From positions 3,782,001-3,846,000 of the forward strand of contig JBANDB010000001.1 of the NCBI GenBank assembly GCA_037576215.1: 64,000 nucleotides of DNA. The letters are read 5' to 3'. This stretch comes from Armillaria gallica (lineage: Eukaryota; Basidiomycota; Agaricomycetes; Agaricales; Physalacriaceae). The first letter of the stretch is position 1; every line of letters begins with the position of its first letter. Of the stretch, positions 7,471-48,284 are shown piece after piece. The notes beneath the pieces are model-generated. The model had not been told where the DNA came from. It made no database searches and was given only the letters and a program-made list of their open reading frames with translations. The position numbers were made by a program, and so were the translations under genes.

Positions 7471-7474
7471 ACCC

Positions 7475-8000
7475 TGTTACATGCATGCCATGAACCTCCA
7501 CTTTACACTGACTTCAAGCATAAACTTCACCTCAACAGATCACACTATCAGACCTCTGTGGCCTGTGGCCGCTTACTATTTACTTACTCCATTTAATATT
7601 TCATTTTTGTTTCATTTTACTATTTCACATATTCAATCTAGAACCTGAATTTAGTAGCAAACAGACCTCTGTTGGATTCCATCGGACTCTGACTTGGATT
7701 ACCTACTCATATATATACTGTAGAATTACTTGTAAATACTCAGTTTGAATATCAACTTAGTTTAGCCAAATCTGTCTCTGACTCCAAGTCTAATCTTATT
7801 TGCTTTCACGTCTGTGGCCTCCGCTCTGTTGGACTATCTCTACTCTATCCAAATCTTCACTCTCTGCGGACTCCATTCTGCAATCCAATCTTAGGGCTTC
7901 AACTCAAGGGTGGCATTGCTAATAGCTTCATCAAAGCCCACGTACTCTGCAGACCTCAGCTCATGTGAGTTACCTTCATCTATTTGGCATGTCCCTAACA
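7475..8000 (+). mobile_element. Solo LTR, E family (copy A)
   Basis: A 526-bp block runs from TGTTACATGC to CCCTAACA, bounded by the 5-bp duplication AACCC (7,470-7,474 and 8,001-8,005). It aligns along its length with the two LTRs of element E, sharing the blocks around 'tttaatatttcattt', the 'actcatatatatac' box and the 'gctaatagcttc' tail. Internal retroelement sequence is absent, so this is a recombination-derived solo LTR. Confidence 0.88.
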
Positions 8001-8199
8001 AACCCACAATTTCCCCATTGTTTGCAAGTCAGTTGAGAAGAACATAAGTCCTGTTGCAAGAGAGTTCTGGTTTTCAGAATGTGAATGATGATTTCTGAGA
8101 GGAAATTGATTGTTGTTTCTGGGAAGAAGTTAGCCATTGGAGAAGGAAGATAGTAGAACTCCCATAACCAACACATGTTATATTTATTCCTGATGTCTA

Positions 8200-10392: not shown

Positions 10393-12204
10393 GTATTTTC
10401 TTCACTCATTCTCTTTCTTCTCACTCAAATACCCCCTCCCCTCTCCCACTCCTCCTTTCTAATTCATCTGAGATTGAGACTACTAAACAATCTCAATATA
10501 CAATCCATGCTAATCAACACACATCATCTTATTTGTATTGATAATGTTTGCATCTGCTTTTCTTGATTCCAATGGATCTTTTACAATGTGACTATTACCT
10601 TCATGCTTAGAGTATAAAAGACCTTTGATCACAGACAAAGACAATGTGGACAATGATCAGAATATGACATCAAGTAATAATAATTTCATATTCTCTATAC
10701 CCTTGTACATCTCTTAGTATTTGAGTGGTAAAACTTGACTCTTTCCTTTACTAAAACAGAGTGGAAACCTCACATAACAGATTTTTGAATTCCAACAAGA
10801 AATCTTGCTTATTGAGATTGTTGTTGTTGCTTCCAGGACCTCCAGAGCCATTTAAGCTACTAGATTGAGAGTTAGGTTTGTCACCACCATAGTTGCACTG
10901 ATTTTAGAGAAGTGGGGTGTCAGTCTCACTTTTGGATCTGTCAGAATCCAGAGTGTCTGGTTGCTCCCCTGTTACATGCATGCTATGGACCTCCACTTCA
11001 CACTGACTTTAAGCACAGACTTTACCTCAACAGATCACACTATTAGACCTCCATGGCCTTCAGCTGCTTATCATTTACTTACTCTATTTAATATTTTATT
11101 TCTATTTTATTTTACTATTTCACATATTAAATCTAAAACCCAAATTTAGTAGTAAACAGACCTTCATTGGATTCCATCAGACTCAGACTCGGATTACCTA
11201 CTCATATATATACTGTAGAATTACTTGTAGATACTCAGTTTGAATATTAACTTGGTTTAGCCAAATCTCTCTCTGACTCCAAGTCCAATTCTATTGCTTT
11301 CAAGTCCATGGGGTCATGTTGCTAATAGCCTCGCCAAAGCCCACACACTTCACAGACCTCCACTTGTGCAAGTTACCTTCATCTATTTAGCATGTCCCTA
11401 ACACCCCCATTGGATGTGAGTTAAGATGCTGGAGTGTGTGGATTTGAGTCATCTTGAAACCTGTCAAATATACTGGTCCTTTGATAGCATGAAACATTAT
11501 CTGGTGGGAGAGAGCCAAAAGGGCTAAAGGATTTGCAGCAATTGGATTGTTGGATAGTAAAACCAGAGTAACTATAGATTTTCCTATAAGATGATTATCC
11601 TTTAACAGAGGCCAATCCAAAAAGTTTAAAGTTTTCTCTGGATGCAGATGCTGCTATATTCTCTATAGAGAATATTGATGTCTTTCTTTTTTAAATCTTC
11701 ACCTGTTTCTGAGAGATAAATGTGTGTAATAGTTATGATTTAAAAATTTTTGACTCAAGGGGTTGAGTTCAAATACACTGTTAGAAATGTGCCAATTAGA
11801 TCAAGATAACTTGTATAAGTGGAGCCTGACAGAGTGTGTTGGCTTTGGCAAAGCTATTAGCATTGTCACTCTTGAGCCAAAGCCCTGCAGTTAGATTATA
11901 GAGTGAAATCTATAAAGAGTAAGAGTTTGGATAGAGAGTTAAAGATAGTTTTATGGAGCAGAGGCTATGGACTTGAGAGTGATAGATTAGACTTAGAGTC
12001 AAAGAGAAATTTGGTTAAATCAAGTTGATATTCAAACTAAGTATTTGCAAGTAATTCTACAGTATATATATATGAGTAGGTAAATCTAAATTGGAATCTG
12101 ATGGATTCAGGTTCTATAATTAATATGTGAAATAGTAAAATAAATAATAAATGAAATATCAAATAAAGCAGAGTAATAATAAGTGGCCAGAGGCCATGAA
12201 ATCA
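10393..12204 (-). mobile_element. Broken E-family gypsy copy C (5' LTR plus gag fragment)
   Basis: Minus-strand E-family LTR sequence runs 12,204-11,779 and ends at the TGTTAG/CACTG boundary. It is followed by the same leader seen after the 5' LTR of E (containing 'gaactcaaccccttgagtc'). A gag fragment then matches the E gag start, from about 11,720 to 11,404 and again from 10,964 to about 10,740, the two parts being separated by solo LTR B. Similarity to E gag fades below about 10,740; sequence down to 10,393 is unassigned. Confidence 0.65.
10970..11403 (+). mobile_element. Solo LTR, E family (copy B), nested in copy C
   Basis: The block starts TGTTACATGC and ends CCCTAACA, with internal deletions relative to the 526-bp copies. 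The flanks TCCCC (10,965-10,969) and CCCCC (11,404-11,408) are near-identical. Joining the two flanks restores the E gag reading (minus-strand 'ccaatggggagcaa'), which proves insertion into element copy C in opposite orientation. Confidence 0.8.
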
Positions 12205-34078: not shown

Positions 34079-34083
34079 TTGTG

Positions 34084-34599
34084 TGTTAGAGACATGCCAA
34101 ATAGACAAAGATAACTCACACAAGTGGAGGTCTGTGGAGTGCGTGGGCTTTGACAAAGCTATTAGCAACGTTACTCTTAAGCTGAAGCTCTAAGATTGGA
34201 TTGCAGAATAGAGTCCACAGAGAGTGAAGGTTTGAATAGAGTAGAGATAGTCTGACAGAGTGGAGGCCACGGATATGAGAGCAAATAGGATTAGACTTAG
34301 AGTCAGAGATAGATTTGGCTAAACTAAGTTAATATTCAAACTGAGTATCCACAAGTAATTCTACAGTATATATATGAGTAGGTAATCCAAGTCAGAGTCT
34401 GATGGAGGTCTGTTTGCTACTGAATTTGGGTTCTAGATTTAATATATAAAATAGCAAAATGAAATGAAAATGAAATATTAAATGGAGTAAGTAAATGGTA
34501 AGTGGCCAGAGGCCATGGAGTTCCGATAGTGTGATTTGTTGAGATGAAGTCTATGCTTGAAGTCAGTGTAAAGTGGAGGTCCACAGCATGTGCATAACA
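34084..34599 (-). mobile_element. Solo LTR, E family (copy D)
   Basis: This is a 516-bp minus-oriented copy: the plus strand starts TGTTAGAGAC (the reverse of GTCCCTAACA) and ends TGCATAACA. TTGTG flanks it on both sides (34,079-34,083 and 34,600-34,604). No internal element sequence is attached. Confidence 0.88.
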
Positions 34600-39562: not shown

Positions 39563-39567
39563 AGAGC

Positions 39568-40093
39568 TGTTATGCGCATGCCGCTGGCCTCCGCTTCACA
39601 CCCATTCCAACTTCAATTGTAACACTAGCATTCCTCACTATCGGACTCCATGGCCTCTGACCGCTTACCATTACTGTTCCATTTGATATTTCATTTATCA
39701 TTTCATTTTACTATTTCACATATTAACTCTAGAACCCGAATCCAGTAGTGAACAGACCACCGCCGGAGTCCATCGGACTCCGACTCGGATTTACCTACTC
39801 ATATATATACCATAGAAATACTTGTAGATACTCAGTTCAAATATCAACTTGGTTTAGCCAAATCTCTCTCTGACTCCAAGTCTAATCTATCGCTCTCCAA
39901 GTCCGCGGCCTCCGCTCCGTTGGACTACCTTTACTCTCTATCCAAACCTTTGCTCTCCGCGGACTCTGCTCCGCAATCCAATCTTAGGGCTTTGGCTCAA
40001 GGGTGACATTGCTAATAGCTTCGCCAAAGCCCACGCACTCTGCGGACCTCTGCTTGTGCAAGTTATCTTTGCCTATTTGGCACGTCCCTAACA
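39568..40093 (+). repeat. 5' LTR of element E
   Basis: 526 bp, TGTTATGCGC to CCCTAACA. Compared with the 3' LTR, the differences I see are transitions (for example GCGC/GCAC, CCGC/CCAC, CCGG/CCAG). The immediate downstream leader 'gtatattcgaactcaacc' is conserved in copy C and should contain the primer-binding site, but no standard tRNA 3'-end match (TGG...) abuts the LTR. Confidence 0.93.
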
Positions 40094-40138
40094 GTATATT
40101 CGAACTCAACCCCTTGAGTCAAATTTTTTCTCTAAATC

Positions 40139-41700
40139 ATGACAACCACATATACTTACCCTCCAGAGACAGGCAAAGGCCTGAAACGAAAAACACCAAT
40201 CTTTTCCATGGATGACATAGCAGCATCCACATCCAAGGAAAATCCAGAGCTTTTCGGATTGGCCTCTGTTGGAGGACAACCATCCTGTAGGGAAACCTAC
40301 AGCCACTCCAGTTTCACTGCTCGTCAATCCGACAACTACGGTTCTCCTAACCCTTTCAGTACTCCACCACCCGATGACCTTCTACATCACTGAAGGACAG
40401 GCATATTCGACGGATACCGAGAAAATCTGGATCCACATACCCCAGTACCTCAACCCACCTCCAATGGGGAGCAAACGGACACCATGGCATCCGATGATTC
40501 CAGAGGCGAAACCAATACCCCCACTCATCCTCTGAATCGACACAACCAGGGTGATGATAGTTCTGACTCCCCAGGTAGCCTGAACAGACCCAGAGGCCCC
40601 GGAGGTCCTGGAGGCCCCAACGGACCAGGTGGTCCTGGTGGTCCCGGAGGTTCCAGAGGGCCTGGAGGTCCCAATGGACCAGGAGGACTGGGTGGACCCA
40701 ACAACAATGTTCCCAATGAGCAAGAATTCTTACAAGAATTCATGAACCTGTTGTGTGGGGTTTCCACTTCGCTAAACAATCCTTGACCCAACAACATCTG
40801 TACCAAGGTCAAAGAACCTGATACATTTGATGGCTCCGACCTGTAGAAGCTTAAGGCTTTCATTGTCTCCCTCCAGTTGAACTTTAATGACAGACCCACT
40901 GCTTTTGCAGTGGATGCCAGTAAAGTCAACTATGCCATCTCCTTCCTTTCTGGCACCGCTCTTGACTGGTTTGAACCAGACATCCTCCGTCTCAATCCGT
41001 GGAATCTGCCAGCATGGCAATACTCTTACGCCGCCTTCCTTGATGAACTTTGAACCAACTTTGGTCCTTTCGATGCCATAGGAGATGCTGAGGATGCCCT
41101 TGAACATCTCTGTATGTGCGACGGAGACCAAATCATGAAGTACATGGTTCAGTTCAATCAATACGCCTCCCAAGTTGGCTACGGCAACAATTCCCTTCAC
41201 CATGCTTTCTACCGCGGACTTTGTACACGCATTAAGGATGATATGGCTCACCACGGAAAACCTAACAATCTCCATGATATGTGCTTCCTAGCCCAAGAAC
41301 TCGATGCTCACTATTGGACTCAGAGGACTGAGATATCCCATGAAAATCAGGAAAACAAGTCCTCTGGTTCATACTCCAACAACCCTAAATCCAAGGGTTC
41401 CAATTCCAACTCCAGTTCTTTGACTTCCGGATCAGCTCCGAAGTCTTCCAATTCCAACTCCTCGGGATCCACTTCCAACCCCAAGCCCTATGCTGATAAG
41501 CTAGGCAAAGATGGCCATCTTACTCAAGAAGAAAAGGACTGCTGCTGAAAGAACAACCTCTGTATGTTCTGTGGAGGCAAGCACAAGACCAAGGACTGCA
41601 ACAAACGCAAGGCTGCAGCTCCCACTAAAGGCCGTGCTGCAGAAGTCAAAGAACCTGTACCTGCCTCTGAGGATCCGGCCCCGACGGAGCCAGAAAACTA
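40139..41700 (+). pseudogene. Element E gag with Gly-Pro-Gly repeats
   Basis: The ATG at 40,139 (MTTTYTYPPE) opens a frame continuing, across stops, to a TAG near 41,698. At about 40,590-40,705 there is a collagen-like run of repeated GPGGPGG. A capsid-like helical region follows ([19 protein letters not shown], then FLDEL.TNFGPFD), a Ser/Asn-rich linker, and a zinc knuckle CMFCGGKHKTKDC (about 41,560; C-x2-C-x3-H-x4-C). Stops at about 40,391, 40,784, 41,049 and 41,546 are TGA at likely Arg codons, and 40,843 is TAG for likely Gln. Protease is in a different frame, so a frameshift or ribosomal slip separates gag from pol. Confidence 0.85.
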
Positions 41701-41721
41701 GAGGGCAGCCCTGTATCCTCC

Positions 41722-44700
41722 GTGCGAGATCAGGGTTGCATTGACTGTAATCGCACACAGGAGGTTGTCACCCTCAACACCGCCGCTCTTTCCAATCATT
41801 CACTCACTGTACCACTCTCCTCTGAAATTGGCTCCGGTATGGAGTCTGACAATTCTCCAATCATTACTATCCTTCGTTTCCTTGCCTTGGTTGACTCTGG
41901 TTCTAGCCATTGTTTCATCAACTCCAAATATGTTGAGGATCACAACCTTCCTACCAAACCTATCCCTCCTGTCCAACTTCGGCTCCTTGACGGCTCCGCC
42001 GGATCTCACATTTCTCAATCCATTACCCTTCCAGTCCGTTTCCCTTCTGGAGACATCATCTCTATCGACTTTTATGTCACTCGTCTAGATTCATCCTGTA
42101 ACATTGTTCTGGGATACAACTGGCTCTCCCGCTGCAATCCGTTGATTGACTAGGCAAAGCACAGTATCACTTTCCATTCACCATTACCAGGTGTTTCTCC
42201 CCCTGCAAGCGCTTCCGCGGTCTCCAATGCAACTGCATCTAACCACATGGACATTCCTCATCCAACCCCTATTCCCAATTCCACCCTGGCTCCTAAGCCA
42301 ATTCCGAGATCCCAATGAACTCCGCTGCCATACGAACCCATCTATTCCTACCCTACCATTCCTTCCTTTTCTGCATCGGTTACCCCAAAGATATCTATCA
42401 TCTCCATGGCCTCTTTTGTTTGAGCATGTGCTGAAGATGGAGCTCAACAATACACCCTCCAACCTTCTGCACCTAGCATCAGCGGAATGGCCAGTTCTGT
42501 GGCCCCGCCAGATATGACAGATGTACCAGCAGAATATCACGACTTTGCTGATGTTTTCAGTGACTCGCTCTCTGAGAAACTCCCTGAGCATAGACCATAT
42601 GACCTCAAGATCAATATTGAGGAAGGAACATCTCCTCCGCTTGGTCCAATTTACTCCCTCTCGGAGTCCGAGCTCAAAGCATTACATGAGTTTATTGACG
42701 ATAATCTCTGTAGTGGATTCATCACACCTTCACATTCTCCCCACAGAGCTCCGGTGCTTTTTGTCAAGAAAAAGACCGGAGAACTCCATCTTTGTGTCGA
42801 TTTCCATGGCTTAAACAAGATATCCAAGAAAGACCGTTATCCCCTTCCACTCATTTCCGACCTCCTAGACTCTGCCCGCATCTATACCAAACTTGATCTT
42901 CGACATGCCTATCATCTTGTATGCATAGCTGAAGGTGATGAATGGAAAACAGCCTTCTGGACCCGTTACGGCTCTTTCGAATGGTGTGTCATGCCTTTTG
43001 GGCTTACCAATGCTCCCGCAGCATTCCAACACTTCATGAACGACATTTTTGCTGACATGCTTGATGTTTCCGTAGTCGTATACCTTGACAACATCCTCAT
43101 ATATTCTGACAACTCCATGGAGCACTTGGAACACGTACGCGAGGTTCTGCGCAGACTAAGAGCAAACGGGCTCTACTGCAAAGGATCCAAATGCGAGTTT
43201 CACCAGGACTCCGTGGAATATCTAGGCTACATTCTCTCACCGGAGGGCCTCCGCATGTCTGAAGACAAGGTCAAGGCCATTTTAGATTGGCCAGTTCCAC
43301 AGAAAGTTAAGGATATCCAATCCTTCCTTGGCTTTGCCAATTTCTACTGCCGTTTTATCCACGAGTACAGTGACATCGTTATTCCTCTAACTCGCCTCAC
43401 ACGCAAAGGAACTCCATGGAAATTCGATGACAAATGCATGGCCGCTTTCAATGAACTAAAGCAAGCCTTCACTCATGCCCCTATCCTCACTCATTGGGTC
43501 CCTGACCGGCAATTAGTTGTGGAGACCGACGCCTCCAACTACGCCATTGCTGCTATCCTCTCTATCTACCTTGACGATGGCGAAATCCACCCTATCGCTT
43601 TCCTATCCCGGAGCCTACACAATGCTGAACTCAACTACGACACCCATGATAAAGAGCTTCTAGCTATCTTTGAAGCCTTTAAATACTGGCATCACTACCT
43701 TGAAGGCTCCACGGATCCGATCGACATCGTAACAGACCACAAGAATCTGGAATATTTTTCAACCACCAAGATTCTCACCCAACGGCAAGTCCGGTGGTCT
43801 GAATACCTATCCCAATTCAATCTAGTAATCCGCTTCCAACTGGGGAAACTCGGAGGAAAACTGGACGCACTCACTAGACAATGGGACGTCTATCCAAAAG
43901 AGGGGGATAGTCAATACGCAGCAGTCAATCCTCATAATTTCCGTCCTGTATTCACTCAAGAACAACTCTCCATGTCTCTCCACGCTACTTTCCTTGAAGG
44001 CCCTACCCTCTGTGCTAGTGCTATAATGGATATTGACAAGCTCCATTTAGATATTAAGCAAGCACAATCATCTGACTCTGTGGCTTCCAACAGTTTCCGT
44101 CAGGCCAAATCCTCCACTCCCACTTCCCCCTCTCGGTGGTCTGTAGATGAATCAGACATTCTCCGTCTTGATAATCACATCTATGTTCCGGACTCCAAGG
44201 ATCTCCATCTCTGTGTCTTACAAAACAATCACGATCACATCTTGGCAGGTCATTTTGGCCAAAATCGGACCTTGGAATTGGTCTGACAGAACTATACCTG
44301 GCCACAGATGTGTGAATATGTTCACCACTATGTCAAATCTTGTACAGTTTGTGGTCGCAACAAGACACCTAGACATTGTCCCTACAGGTTACTTAAACCC
44401 CTGCCAGTTCCGGAATGCCCATGGGATTCCATTTCAATGGATTTCATTGAACAGTTACCAGACTCCAACGGATTCACTGCTATCCTTGTAGTAATCGACC
44501 GTGCAAGCAAGCAAGCCATCTTCATCCCTACACACAATACCATTAATTCCGAAGAACTCACCTGGTTATTCATCATTCACGTTTTCTCTAAACATGGCAT
44601 CCCTAACCACATCACCTCTGACCGTGGCTCCGAATTTGTCTCCCAATTCATGTGTGCCCTTGCCAAAGCCCTCAACATGGAACTTCACTTCACTTCCGGA

Positions 44701-45520
44701 TATCATCCAGAGGCCGACGGACAAACAGAATGTGCAAACCAAACCTTGGAACAGTACATCTGCATCTATTGTTCTTATCAACAGGACAACTGGGATTTAC
44801 TACTACCCATTGCCGAATTTGCATACAACAATGCTCCGAACGTCTCCACCAGAATCTCTCCATTCTTTGCCAACAAAGGCTATCACCCTAATATCACTGT
44901 TCACCCTGAACGTGATATTGCCTCCGCTTGGGCCCGCGACTTTGTAGTCAACCTAGATGAACTACACCAATTCCTATGCGACGAAATCACTCAGGTGCAG
45001 TCTCACTACAAGATCCAAGCAGACAAGCACAGGAATCCAGCTCCCCCCTTCAAAGTAGGTGACAGGGTCTTCCTTAGCTCCAAGCATATCAAGACTACTC
45101 GTCCTACCATGAAATTCGCAGAGAAATTTCTTGGCCCATTCAAAATCATAGCTCAACCTGGCTCCCATTCCTTCATGCTCAAACTCCCATCGGACCTCCA
45201 TGCCATTCATCCTGTCTTCCATGTATCACAACTTGAACTGGTAGAAGAAAACACTATTCCCAATTGCACTCAACCTCCGCCGCCTCCAGTGGAAGTCGAT
45301 GGTGAAGAGCAGTACAAAATAGCTCAGATCCTAGACTCCAAGATTGACCGCCGGTTCCAGTGTCCCCTTCTCTACAGGATTCAATGGTTAGGCTATGAAG
45401 GAACTGACAAAGAATTTGCATAGTTACCGGCCACCAAGTTCTCCACGGACAATTTCATCGAGGATTTCCACCGTCACTATCCAGACAAACCAGGACTATT
45501 AGCCAAAGTCACCATCTGAA
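41722..45520 (+). pseudogene. Element E pol: protease, RT, RNase H, integrase, chromodomain
   Basis: Protease LVDSGSSHCFI at about 41,890. TAG at 42,151 replaces expected Trp. The longest open stretch, 42,487-44,286, has RT motifs (KKKTGELHLCVDFHGLNK; VVYLDNILIYS, where the usual second Asp of YxDD is Asn; LGYILSPEG) and RNase H (VETDAS, TDHKNLEYF). TGA at 44,284 replaces expected Arg, then 44,308-45,423 encodes the integrase zinc region (CTVCGRNK), core (SMDFIEQLP, ITSDRGSEF, EADGQTE) and the GDRVFLSSKHI tail. A chromodomain (YKIAQILDSKID, YRIQWLGYEG) is cut by TAG at 45,421 for expected Trp. The YLDN substitution is D to N (GAC to AAC), another G-to-A change, and would itself inactivate RT. 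Confidence 0.95.
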
Positions 45521-45830
45521 AATCTACCATTTAACTTCTCCCTCACCTGTAACATTATCGGTCTCCACCAGCTCCGACCTCTCTTATTTCAAACAGAATC
45601 CACAAAACCTATTGCAAATTCATTTCCTAAATGGGACTGGCCTCCAGCGGAATCCATATGCTGTATTTCATATTCATTTCCTGCTCTCTATTGCAAATAG
45701 TCTTCTCATCTCCCACTTTATTACAAGTCAACAAGAATTGGGGCCCCACAGGCCCTGGATACATTCAAAACATACAAAAAAATCTATATACGCATGTAAA
45801 AAGTCCAAGAAGAATGATGTCCGGAGGTAT

Positions 45831-47591
45831 TTAAGCATCGGAACCACCCACAGCATTTGCTGCCCCTGCCATCTCCACATCCCATTCCCCTGCCGGCACT
45901 TCTCCCTCCTCTGCGGAATCTGACTTCTCTACGCTATCCTCATCCTTGTCCTCTCCACTGGAAGCCGCCGCGGAATCCGACTCCAAGACGAATAGGTTAT
46001 CGAGGGCAGGAATGCCCAAGTCATCCCCGTACAGTTTCCTCCCTTTCCGAACCGCACCATCCAAAATCTTCTCTTCCGGATCTGAATCCTCCACCATGAA
46101 GTCCTCGCAATGTTTATGTAGGTGCTCCTTCCAAAACTGCCATTCAGACCGGTGACCTCCCAACTTGTAGAACTCGTTCCTTGTAGCTTGGAACAGTTCG
46201 CATCACATCTTCATGGTCCCAATCATTTCTGGGCCACCGGTGCCATATCAGAACTGTTGATTGGCAATCTCGTATGGATCCTGGGGATCGACCCTCTCAG
46301 GCTCCAACAGACCCCCTTGCCTCAACTGCGCAATGTCACGGTCCAGCCAGAATCCCATCACCTGCCGGAGCGCCTTGCTATTCACCCCCTCTAAATCATG
46401 CAACTTGGCACACGACGCCTTCCACTCCTCTGTATCGGACTCCAAAAGAAGATCCCTTGGCGACTTGATATCTTCTATATGATAGTCGTTGCAGAGGTCG
46501 CCAACACAGCTCCAGAGAGAAGCGACTTCTTCTGTTAAACTGTTGACTTTCCCAGCCAGTACAGTCATGGTCACCACCAAATTTTGAAGAACCTCTGAAA
46601 CCTCATTGGAGCCGACGGCGAGCGAGGAAGTTGCTCCCTTGTTGAAAGAACAAGCAGATTTCTTGATCTTGCAATGAGAGCAAGTCTGCCCTCAGTTGGA
46701 CCTTTCGGAGGCCGGTTTCGCAAAACATCTGACATTATCCAGACGGCATCACATACAACGCTCTGAAACTGAAGTCAGTAAGCAATAAGCCACCGGAGGA
46801 AAACACCTACTAGTTCCCGAAAATTCATCTTCGCCCTCCGCGGGGCCTGTGACCTCCAACTTTACCCTCTTACTAGGGCCAGTCACCCCCTCCTCCCCAC
46901 TATCCACCACACTCGCAGATGTCACCGGCTGTTTCCTTTTCCTCACTTCCACAGTGGACATCACGGAATCTGTCGCCCTCCGTTTTCCTTCGCACTTCTC
47001 CTTCAATTGTTGAAGTACATGCGCCTTTGACGCCTCCGACAACTCCCCCTCACTATCACCATCAGTTCCCTTCTCCTCCTGCAACAACTCCACCGCATCC
47101 AGGAGTACGCCGGACTCCGTCACCTTCTTAGCCTTCTCTTGTTTCTTCTGTTCCTTCCTCAATTTCCTCGCAGCATCCTTTTTCTCTTTTTTAGCCAAGT
47201 CATCCTTTCTTTTCTTCTCTGTGGCCTCCTCAAGTTCCTTGGCCTTCAAATCCTCCAGCCTTTTCTTCTCCGCAGCATCCTCCTGCTCCTTCAACAAATG
47301 GAGCCGCTCCTCCTCCTGTCTTCTCTCCTCCACCTTCCTTTTCTCCTTAGCTTTCTGCTTCATAACCTCAACCTTCGCAGCCTGCGCCTCTCGCACCAAC
47401 CTCAACTTTTCATCCTGCTCCGCCGCCGCCTTTGCCTCCTTCCAAGCAGCATGTTTGGCCACGGCCTCCACATAATGCTCCTCTGCGGCAGCCCGAGCTT
47501 CGATCTCCTCAACTGAAATATCCTTGGGGGTCAGGGCCAACTCATAAGGCTCAGGTGTTACGGAGAGGCAGTATTCGACGGTTTGCGACAT
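45831..47591 (-). CDS. Antisense gene inside element E: coiled-coil, Zn2Cys6-like protein
   Basis: On the strand opposite to gag-pol an ATG at 47,591 (MSQTVEYCLS) or 47,696 opens a frame of about 260 codons. It holds a long Ala/Glu/Lys-rich coiled coil (about residues 30-150) and a basic, NLS-like stretch (KRRATD...VRKRKQP). A likely 42-nt intron (GTAGGT...TTCAG, about 46,812-46,771) joins it to a second part. There the cysteines are spaced C-x2-C-x6-C-x14-C-x2-C-x6-C (about 46,760-46,660), close to a fungal Zn(II)2Cys6 cluster. A helical domain (EVSEVLQNLVVTMTVLAGKV on) and an acidic Glu/Asp-rich C-terminus ending at TAA 45,832 follow. Four in-frame TGA codons occur, two inside the cysteine region, each explicable as CGA to TGA. 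It may be a DNA-binding or regulatory factor carried by the element. Function not shown. Confidence 0.6.
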
Positions 47592-47753
47592 AGTTGGCAG
47601 TGAGAAAGAGGAAATCCTGAAAAGAAGAGGAGATGGTGGTGGTTTAAAGTTAAGTGATGAAATTCCCATGCTCAAAAAATCTGTCAGGCTTACCATATTG
47701 ATCGGCCATCGGGATCAGTGCTCTTGAGGGCAAGAATGCTAAGGGGGGGATAC

Positions 47754-48279
47754 TGTTATGCACATGCCACCGGCCTCCACTTCACACCCATTCCAACTTC
47801 AATTGTAACACTAGTATTCCTCACTATCGGACTCCATGGCCTCCAACCACTTACCATTACTGTTCCATTTGATATTTCATTTATCATTTCATTTTACTAT
47901 TTCACATATTAACTCTAGAACCCGAATCTGGTAGCGAACAGACCACCGCCAGAGTCCATCAGACTCTGACTCGGATTTACCTACTCATATATATACCATA
48001 GAAATACTTGTAGATACTCAGTTCAAATATCAACTTGGTTTAGCCAAATCTCTCTCTGACTCCAAGTCTAATCTATCGCTCTCCAAGTCCGCAGCCTCTG
48101 CTCTGTTGGACTACCTTTACTCTCTATCCAAACCTTTGCTCTCTGTGGACTCCACTCCACAATCCAATCTTAGGGCTTTAGCTCAAGGGTGACATTGCTA
48201 ATAGCTTCGCCAAAGCCCATGCACTCCGTGGATCTCTGCTCGTGCAAGTTATCTTTGCCTATTTGGCACGTCCCTAACA
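47754..48279 (+). repeat. 3' LTR of element E
   Basis: 526 bp, TGTTATGCAC to CCCTAACA, preceded 3 bp upstream by the polypurine tract AAGGGGGGGA. Followed by the AGAGC target duplication. Confidence 0.93.
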
Positions 48280-48284
48280 AGAGC

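Follow-up and report, generated by a model that had tools for sequence, protein, structure and literature searches.

In several LTR retrotransposons, a gene lies between pol and the 3′ LTR on the strand opposite to gag-pol, and the role of such antisense genes is an open question, as stated in parts of two reviews (PMC7264820; PMC11963269). Examples at this place are the antisense genes of the plant elements Grande, RIRE2 and Retand (excerpts of PMC7264820 and PMC11963269) and that of the element Boty of Botrytis (passages in PMC7264820 and PMC8365987), and for gene23 of Grande, the available portions of PMC11963269 and PMC7264820 describe transcription from its own promoter and a nuclear product. 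The question is raised again by a locus of the basidiomycete Armillaria gallica, where an LTR retrotransposon, hereafter element E, carries a long gene on the minus strand behind pol. What does this gene encode, is it maintained, and what might it do for the element? The locus lies in a stretch of 64,000 nucleotides (the window; positions 3,782,001 to 3,846,000 of contig JBANDB010000001.1, assembly GCA_037576215.1), to which the coordinates in the following refer.

Element E spans positions 39568-48279 and is part of a genome of 86 Mb (Table 1). It shows the hallmarks of Ty3/Gypsy elements, namely LTRs bounded by TG and CA, a 5-bp target duplication, and reverse transcriptase and RNase H ahead of integrase. 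Pieces of its pol matched the Pfam families RVT_1, RT_RNaseH, rve and SH3_Tf2-1, and its two LTRs of 526 bp each form a 527-base repeat that is 94.7% alike. A chromodomain was detected only below threshold, in L025, which is a sister copy (18.5 bits for Pfam Chromo, with a cut-off of 25.1; E 0.0019). Judged by these features, element E is a Ty3/Gypsy retrotransposon of chromovirus-like type.

Table 1. Features of element E in the window
Feature	Position	Strand	Remarks
Target-site duplication AGAGC	left 39563..39567, right 48280..48284		5 bp
5′ LTR (TG...CA)	39568..40093	+	CGG-N3-CCG-type sites at 39585, 39642, 39764, 39774, 39906; TATA at ~39802
gag region	40140..41701	+	stop-interrupted
pol	41722..45519	+	RT + RNase H, integrase, chromodomain-like end; stop-interrupted
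Antisense exon 2	45831..46762	-	six-cysteine cluster, coiled coil, helical domain, acidic tail; stop codon 45833-45831
Coiled-coil helix directly behind the cluster, possibly for dimerisation	46482..46610	-	placed by aligning the helix from models of relatives
Six-cysteine cluster	46650..46757	-	C-x2-C-x6-C-x14-C-x2-C-x6-C; second half C-x2-C-K-x-K-K-x2-C
Antisense intron	46763..46810	-	48 nt, GTAGGT...CTGAC...TTTCAG
Antisense exon 1	46811..47591	-	start codon, long coiled coil (~47513-47118), basic stretch
Leader between antisense ATG and 3′ LTR	47592..47753		conserved PPT-side block, G run 47743-47749
3′ LTR	47754..48279	+	CpG-decayed CGG-N3-CCG-type sites at 47771, 47828, 47837, 47950, 48146; TATA at ~47988

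A preliminary description of the window had reported one long minus-strand frame behind pol, kept about as well as gag-pol and broken by TGA codons only. Such a frame is indeed present between 45519 and the 3′ LTR. Its exon 1 has no stop in 260 codons and its exon 2 has four in 309, all of them TGA, next to five stops in the 1264 codons of the pol frame and six in the 520 codons of the best gag frame. Two details of the gene model had to be revised. The ATG at 47696, originally taken as the start, lies in the leader, which is out of frame or closed off by stops in most copies and changes frame from copy to copy. Among 19 aligned copies, 18 share the start codon at 47591-47589. Likewise, the intron, first predicted to measure 42 nt, has the length given in Table 1 once the copies are aligned, with the downstream AG as acceptor.

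The signals of this intron are well conserved: all 23 aligned copies keep GT...AG, and 22 of the 23 have a YTRAY motif near the 3′ end. Its length varies between 46 and 54 nt and is not a multiple of three in 18 of the 23. The DNA of L038-L040 has, by eye, the same kind of intron, and the annotated Armillaria proteins P0003, P0004, P0006 and P0008 are spliced at the same place; P0001 and P0002, which come without source names, retain the intron stretch as coding. Retrotransposition does not remove such an intron, because the genomic RNA of LTR elements has the sense orientation, in which the stretch is no intron. The conserved signals therefore argue, indirectly but strongly, that transcription and splicing of the antisense strand take place, or did so until recently.

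The preliminary description had made the gene depend on its presence in sister copies. At least 40 integrase places were found by DNA, and at 38 of the 40 that were scored (from 75 candidates), the antisense gene lies downstream on the opposite strand; within 3.1 kb around and beyond the integrase end, none was found at the other two (L034 and L037). The distance from integrase to the matched part of the gene is 630-698 bp in 28 of the 38 and about 2.4 kb in two. A downstream LTR was located in 21 copies (search range 1.2-4.2 kb beyond integrase), and in 18 of these the integrase end and the 3′ LTR are 2.17-2.39 kb apart. A free-standing host gene was considered and, for most places, rejected, as integrase lies no more than 5 kb away and on the side expected at 55 of 63 antisense places (63 of 78 antisense-match rows, the second pieces and weakest rows being omitted). 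The antisense gene is thus real and present in nearly every copy. As in genes of the aORF-3R kind, its place is behind pol and ahead of the 3′ LTR, on the strand opposite to gag-pol, and it occurs in most copies, conserved like the other genes of the element. In L026 and L041, the antisense genes are split by other inserted sequence.

The frame is also maintained as a protein. The comparison of dN/dS, which had likewise been suggested, gave a median of 0.22 for exon 2 (5-95% range 0.15-0.33; 136 pairs, 17 copies) against 0.18 for integrase, and 0.23 for exon 1 (113 pairs drawn from 23 copies, with short or saturated ones excluded). In exon 2, the real frame has 0.28 stops per 100 codons versus 1.2-5.6 in the other five frames, and a ratio of proportions of 0.37 versus 0.44-1.40 (171 pairs), a control whose 19 copies were chosen by matches in the real frame and which favours that frame. 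The claim that the frame was under selection therefore holds, with dN/dS, frame control, cysteines and intron all in agreement: the antisense gene is under purifying selection as a protein.

The cysteine spacing had been described correctly (Table 1). The translation also shows the coiled coil, the basic stretch and the acidic tail, and helices were modelled on the relative P0003. Conservation of the cysteines across copies, regarded as decisive from the outset, is high. Thirty-three loci were scanned, and all six cysteines are found in 24 of the 26 that have the second half; the pattern demanded KK and the second half, so this count does not bear on KK itself. The two remaining copies, L026 and L041, are both interrupted by other sequence. 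With a looser pattern, six cysteines were found in L022 and L035 among five further loci, and no match in L010, L031 and L032. The second half has the general form C-x2-C-x2-K-K-x2-C. Two alignments, of 11 and of 13 sequences, show no change in its KK; L035 has EK. The KK sits at the place of the KK in the first half of Gal4, C-x2-C-R-x-K-K-x-K-C (PDB 3coq chain).

Two types of the protein can be distinguished by the loop between the third and fourth cysteine, which has 14 residues in type 1, the type in the window, and 8 in type 2. Their exon 2 proteins are 31-37% identical between types, and type 2 copies (L038, L039, L040 and others) share the six cysteines, the intron and the coiled coil. 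In usual Zn2Cys6 proteins, this loop has about 5-12 residues, and type 1 lies above that range. The resemblance to Gal4-type Zn2Cys6 proteins comprises two C-x2-C-x6-C halves, the placement of KK, a coiled coil thereafter and, as detailed below, arrays of inverted CGG; the differences are that the half resembling Gal4's first comes second here, that the type 1 loop is long, and that no Zn_clus match lies above the cut-off.

The last point concerns the window protein and all of the 18 relatives scanned, none of which reached the Pfam Zn_clus cut-off in the comparison that the preliminary description had suggested. Eight relatives gave no Zn_clus match at E<=10, and the other ten yielded three sub-threshold matches (E 1.3-8.1; best 9.7 bits against 21). 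One of these, in P0049, runs through the model; in P0039 (residues 241-256 to model positions 2-17) and P0064 (270-286 to 1-17), the second half is aligned to the model start, which agrees with the halves being in inverted order. Across the same 19 proteins, the Pfam scans returned no accepted family and no TRP28 (PF04195); the lowest E-value of all, a Cytochrome_C7 match of P0061 (E 0.0035; 17.6 bits against 24.8), also lies below its cut-off and is probably cysteine-driven. At least 11 relatives are named 'Zn(2)-C6 fungal-type' in UniRef (P0006 and 10 of the 72 rows listed). AlphaFold models of a full relative and of exon 2 have low confidence except in the coiled coils, with the cluster mostly at pLDDT <50; in models of relatives, a coiled coil directly follows the cluster. 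Searches of PDB sequences gave three weak profile matches to coiled-coil proteins (E 0.23-0.43) and one match of the cluster fragment (E 0.97), all of which we take as chance. We accordingly describe the cluster as zinc-cluster-like without assigning it to the Zn2Cys6 family (PF00172), because the Zn_clus cut-off was never reached; of the selected, zinc-cluster-patterned gene originally described, the selection and the cysteines stand, and the zinc cluster remains a likeness. The named relatives among the matches listed come from A. ostoyae, A. solidipes, A. borealis, A. nabsnona, A. gallica and A. mellea, with no homolog outside Armillaria among these named matches; many further matches are unnamed. 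By these names, the genome would belong to Armillaria or a near relative; for one A. gallica protein, P0085, the best match was 78%.

Zinc-cluster homodimers generally bind sites of the inverted form CGG-N3-CCG, and this form is enriched in the LTRs of the family. It occurs 2.11 times per LTR (range 0-5) versus 0.05 in shuffles across the 19 of 21 LTRs that exceed 480 nt, with at least one perfect site in 14 of the 19 and none in five. In the ten CpG-intact LTRs, there are 3.4 per LTR versus 0.23 expected from trinucleotide frequencies, and in these CpG-rich LTRs, the form ranks first by observed minus expected among 832 inverted trinucleotide-and-spacing configurations. Since LTR copies are homologous and hence non-independent, we place weight on several sites within single LTRs. 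When seven chosen LTRs were shuffled singly, the observed count was reached in 0/2000 shuffles for six; the seventh, the 3′ LTR in the window, has no perfect site and four sites of the looser form YGG-N3-CCR, a count likewise reached in 0/2000. For the LTR of L025, the looser-form count was reached once. Sites lie at about LTR positions 19, 66-76, 75-86, 189-200, 200-210, 331-341 and 385-395, five of them upstream and two downstream of a TATA-like box at about 236.

The density of CGG-N3-CCG is 6.4/kb in CpG-rich LTRs and about 0.02/kb in other window and flank DNA, a contrast that is inflated by the CpG depletion of this background; a fairer comparison is pol, with 0-1.2/kb in five copies. 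The spacer-antisense region shows a moderate enrichment of 1.95/kb. An exact double site occurs eight times in the genome, versus none for the reversed pattern, and by coordinates seven of the eight lie at or near copies of the element E family; one, at C13:805379-805396, lies away from the listed copies. Sites specific to one protein type were considered and found no support in four type 2 LTRs: those of L039 and L040 bear the same arrays, and those of L029 and L035, which are CpG-poor, have one looser-form site each. The observed/expected ratio of CpG is 0.0-0.25 in some LTRs (e.g. L022, L027 and L035) and above 1 in others. Decay of the RIP-like or methylation type would erase CGG sites with age. 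Elsewhere in the window, related LTR pieces (7472-8003, 10967-11404, 11779-12198 and 34081-34590) contain a few decayed sites of this type.

The copies differ unevenly along their length. When 17 of the 21 copies are aligned, integrase windows have a mean divergence of 0.09-0.13, compared with 0.16-0.27 in the spacer, 0.22-0.40 in the antisense gene and 0.09-0.17 in the LTR; it is 0.31 for antisense exon 2, 0.10 for the integrase tail and 0.12 for the LTRs. Median dS is 1.06 for the antisense gene and 0.34 for integrase, and antisense dS is more than 1.5 times integrase dS, or saturated, in 110 of 136 pairs, with the reverse in four. Pairwise distances correlate with r 0.82 between antisense gene and LTR, 0.69 between integrase and LTR, and 0.53 between integrase and antisense gene. 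Moreover, for 13 of the 17 copies, the data of either gene, antisense or integrase, reject the tree of the other (AU p 2e-46 and 3e-36), with several nodes of the integrase tree being weakly supported. The antisense divergence does not stem from CpG decay, because transversions at four-fold sites give the same contrast (0.22 versus 0.05 in integrase). On the same values, together with the low divergence of the LTRs, we reject fast mutation as the sole cause. Recombination, by template switching or gene conversion, appears to explain the pattern best: it would keep old antisense lineages on a homogenised backbone.

We propose, and give it a slightly better than even chance, that the antisense protein is a self-encoded dimeric DNA-binding regulator of the element's own LTRs. 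Its mRNA would start in or next to the 3′ LTR and then be spliced and translated. The protein would enter the nucleus and dimerise via its coiled coil, with its six cysteines holding zinc, and it may bind the CGG-N3-CCG arrays of the LTRs and so adjust the transcription of gag-pol from the sense strand, and probably that of its own gene as well. For this reading, we count the presence in copies, dN/dS, the intron, the cysteines, the LTR arrays and the Zn(2)-C6 names; against it, the missed Zn_clus cut-off, the lack of a confident cluster fold, the loop of 14, the EK of L035, the window's 3′ LTR without a perfect site, and the fact that the spacer-antisense region is also enriched. A host factor could be the binder of the arrays. 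More tentatively, the parts might amount to a circuit of an antisense Gal4-like regulator with inverted halves, an LTR operator array and a swappable regulator cassette, with ancient lineages side by side in one genome, a picture that we hold to be possible and rather doubtful.

As far as the available parts of the papers go, the plant antisense genes of Grande, RIRE2 and Retand resemble the gene described here in position, in orientation, in being suspected nuclear or DNA-binding regulators, and in their presence in most copies of a family. Unlike these aORFs, the gene here has a six-cysteine cluster and a conserved short intron, and it is accompanied by LTR arrays of inverted CGG; furthermore, Retand belongs to a plant, non-chromovirus lineage with a TRP28 domain, whereas element E is fungal, chromovirus-like and without TRP28. 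The antisense gene of Boty, or BcGypsy1, in Botrytis cinerea is reportedly called brtn and is said to have been described by Zhao in 2011. Boty, as portrayed in parts of papers that cite it, is likewise a fungal LTR retrotransposon with an antisense gene between pol and the 3′ LTR; its host is an ascomycete, and the likeness noted here is one of position. HBZ of HTLV-1 is a bZIP protein that dimerises by a coiled coil, and not a cysteine cluster. It is, as far as excerpts describe it, a functional analogue only, being an antisense-coded nuclear regulator. In HTLV, an antisense promoter lies in the 3′ LTR, and HBZ is encoded antisense (excerpts of PMC11963269 and PMC7264820).

The preliminary description knew antisense frames behind pol from some plant gypsy (Tat-type) elements and took one with a zinc-cluster pattern to be new. 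An antisense gene at this place is known in fungal Boty too, so that the idea is only partly new. What may be new is a zinc-cluster-like one with LTR arrays: in the titles and abstract beginnings of the literature searched, we found neither an antisense zinc-cluster gene in fungal elements nor a description of the element E family in Armillaria. The word 'antisense' is absent from the accessible part of PMC3248453. With a DNA-binding-like core and a candidate site repeated in its own LTRs, the element E family is a testable case, and several sequenced species of Armillaria are available for comparison. If the proposed function is true, element E codes for a regulator that acts in trans on the element's promoter, much like complex retroviruses. 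With cassette recombination, nature itself would provide an experiment from which to learn why regulators of this kind become diverse.

A different function, which we regard as unlikely, would be that of an integration or chromatin-targeting partner that attaches to DNA or chromatin of particular chromosomal zones, possibly centromeres, and, jointly with the chromodomain, directs the pre-integration complex. The family is clustered on contigs, as this explanation would have it: mean pairwise distance is 0.096 of the contig versus 0.333 under uniform placement (minimum of 2000 uniform trials, 0.225) and 0.335 for another Ty3 family, which is spread, based on 59 of 62 family places (three second pieces omitted), with C3, C9, C12 and C13 (7 places) left aside in the distance test. 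Moreover, Cep3, a protein of the kinetochore, has a weak zinc-cluster kinship to Gal4 among PDB sequences (E 0.069), an analogy only. However, the chromodomain-like integrase tail (sub-threshold) could suffice alone, places are spread on C2, C9, C13 and C19, and the site arrays sit in the LTRs and hardly in other local DNA. Zones of the family lie at 3.1-4.7 Mb on C1, 1.5-2.2 Mb on C14 and 4.0-4.15 Mb on C8, and also on C4-C7; such clustered zones would fit a centromere-like pattern.

We also consider it quite improbable that the protein works against silencing by the host, or in competition between elements or self-limitation, so that the cassettes reflect an arms race. The excess divergence of antisense exon 2 over integrase tail and LTRs and the conflicting genealogies would fit such a conflict, and many LTRs have lost CpG, which hints at silencing by the host or at mutation. 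Yet, at about 0.22, dN/dS gives on average no sign of positive selection, the high dS speaks for old lineages and not for fast amino-acid change, and the cysteine core is conserved.

Compared with a regulator acting on its own LTRs, two further explanations dispense with the protein altogether. The antisense transcript alone might matter, as dsRNA or through transcriptional interference, with the frame as a by-product, and antisense transcription is discussed as a silencing route for plant elements (in parts of PMC7264820); this is very improbable in view of the purifying selection on the frame, the few stops, the conserved cysteines, and splice signals maintained at introns whose length is in most cases not divisible by three. 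Finally, a functionless open frame that arose by chance or as a shadow can practically be dismissed, for although the lowest ratio among the other frames, 0.44 in the reverse-complement frame rc1, is also lowish beside that of the real frame, rc1 has 1.93 stops per 100 codons, and the intron, cysteine and copy data as well as gene models in several Armillaria species speak for a genuine gene.
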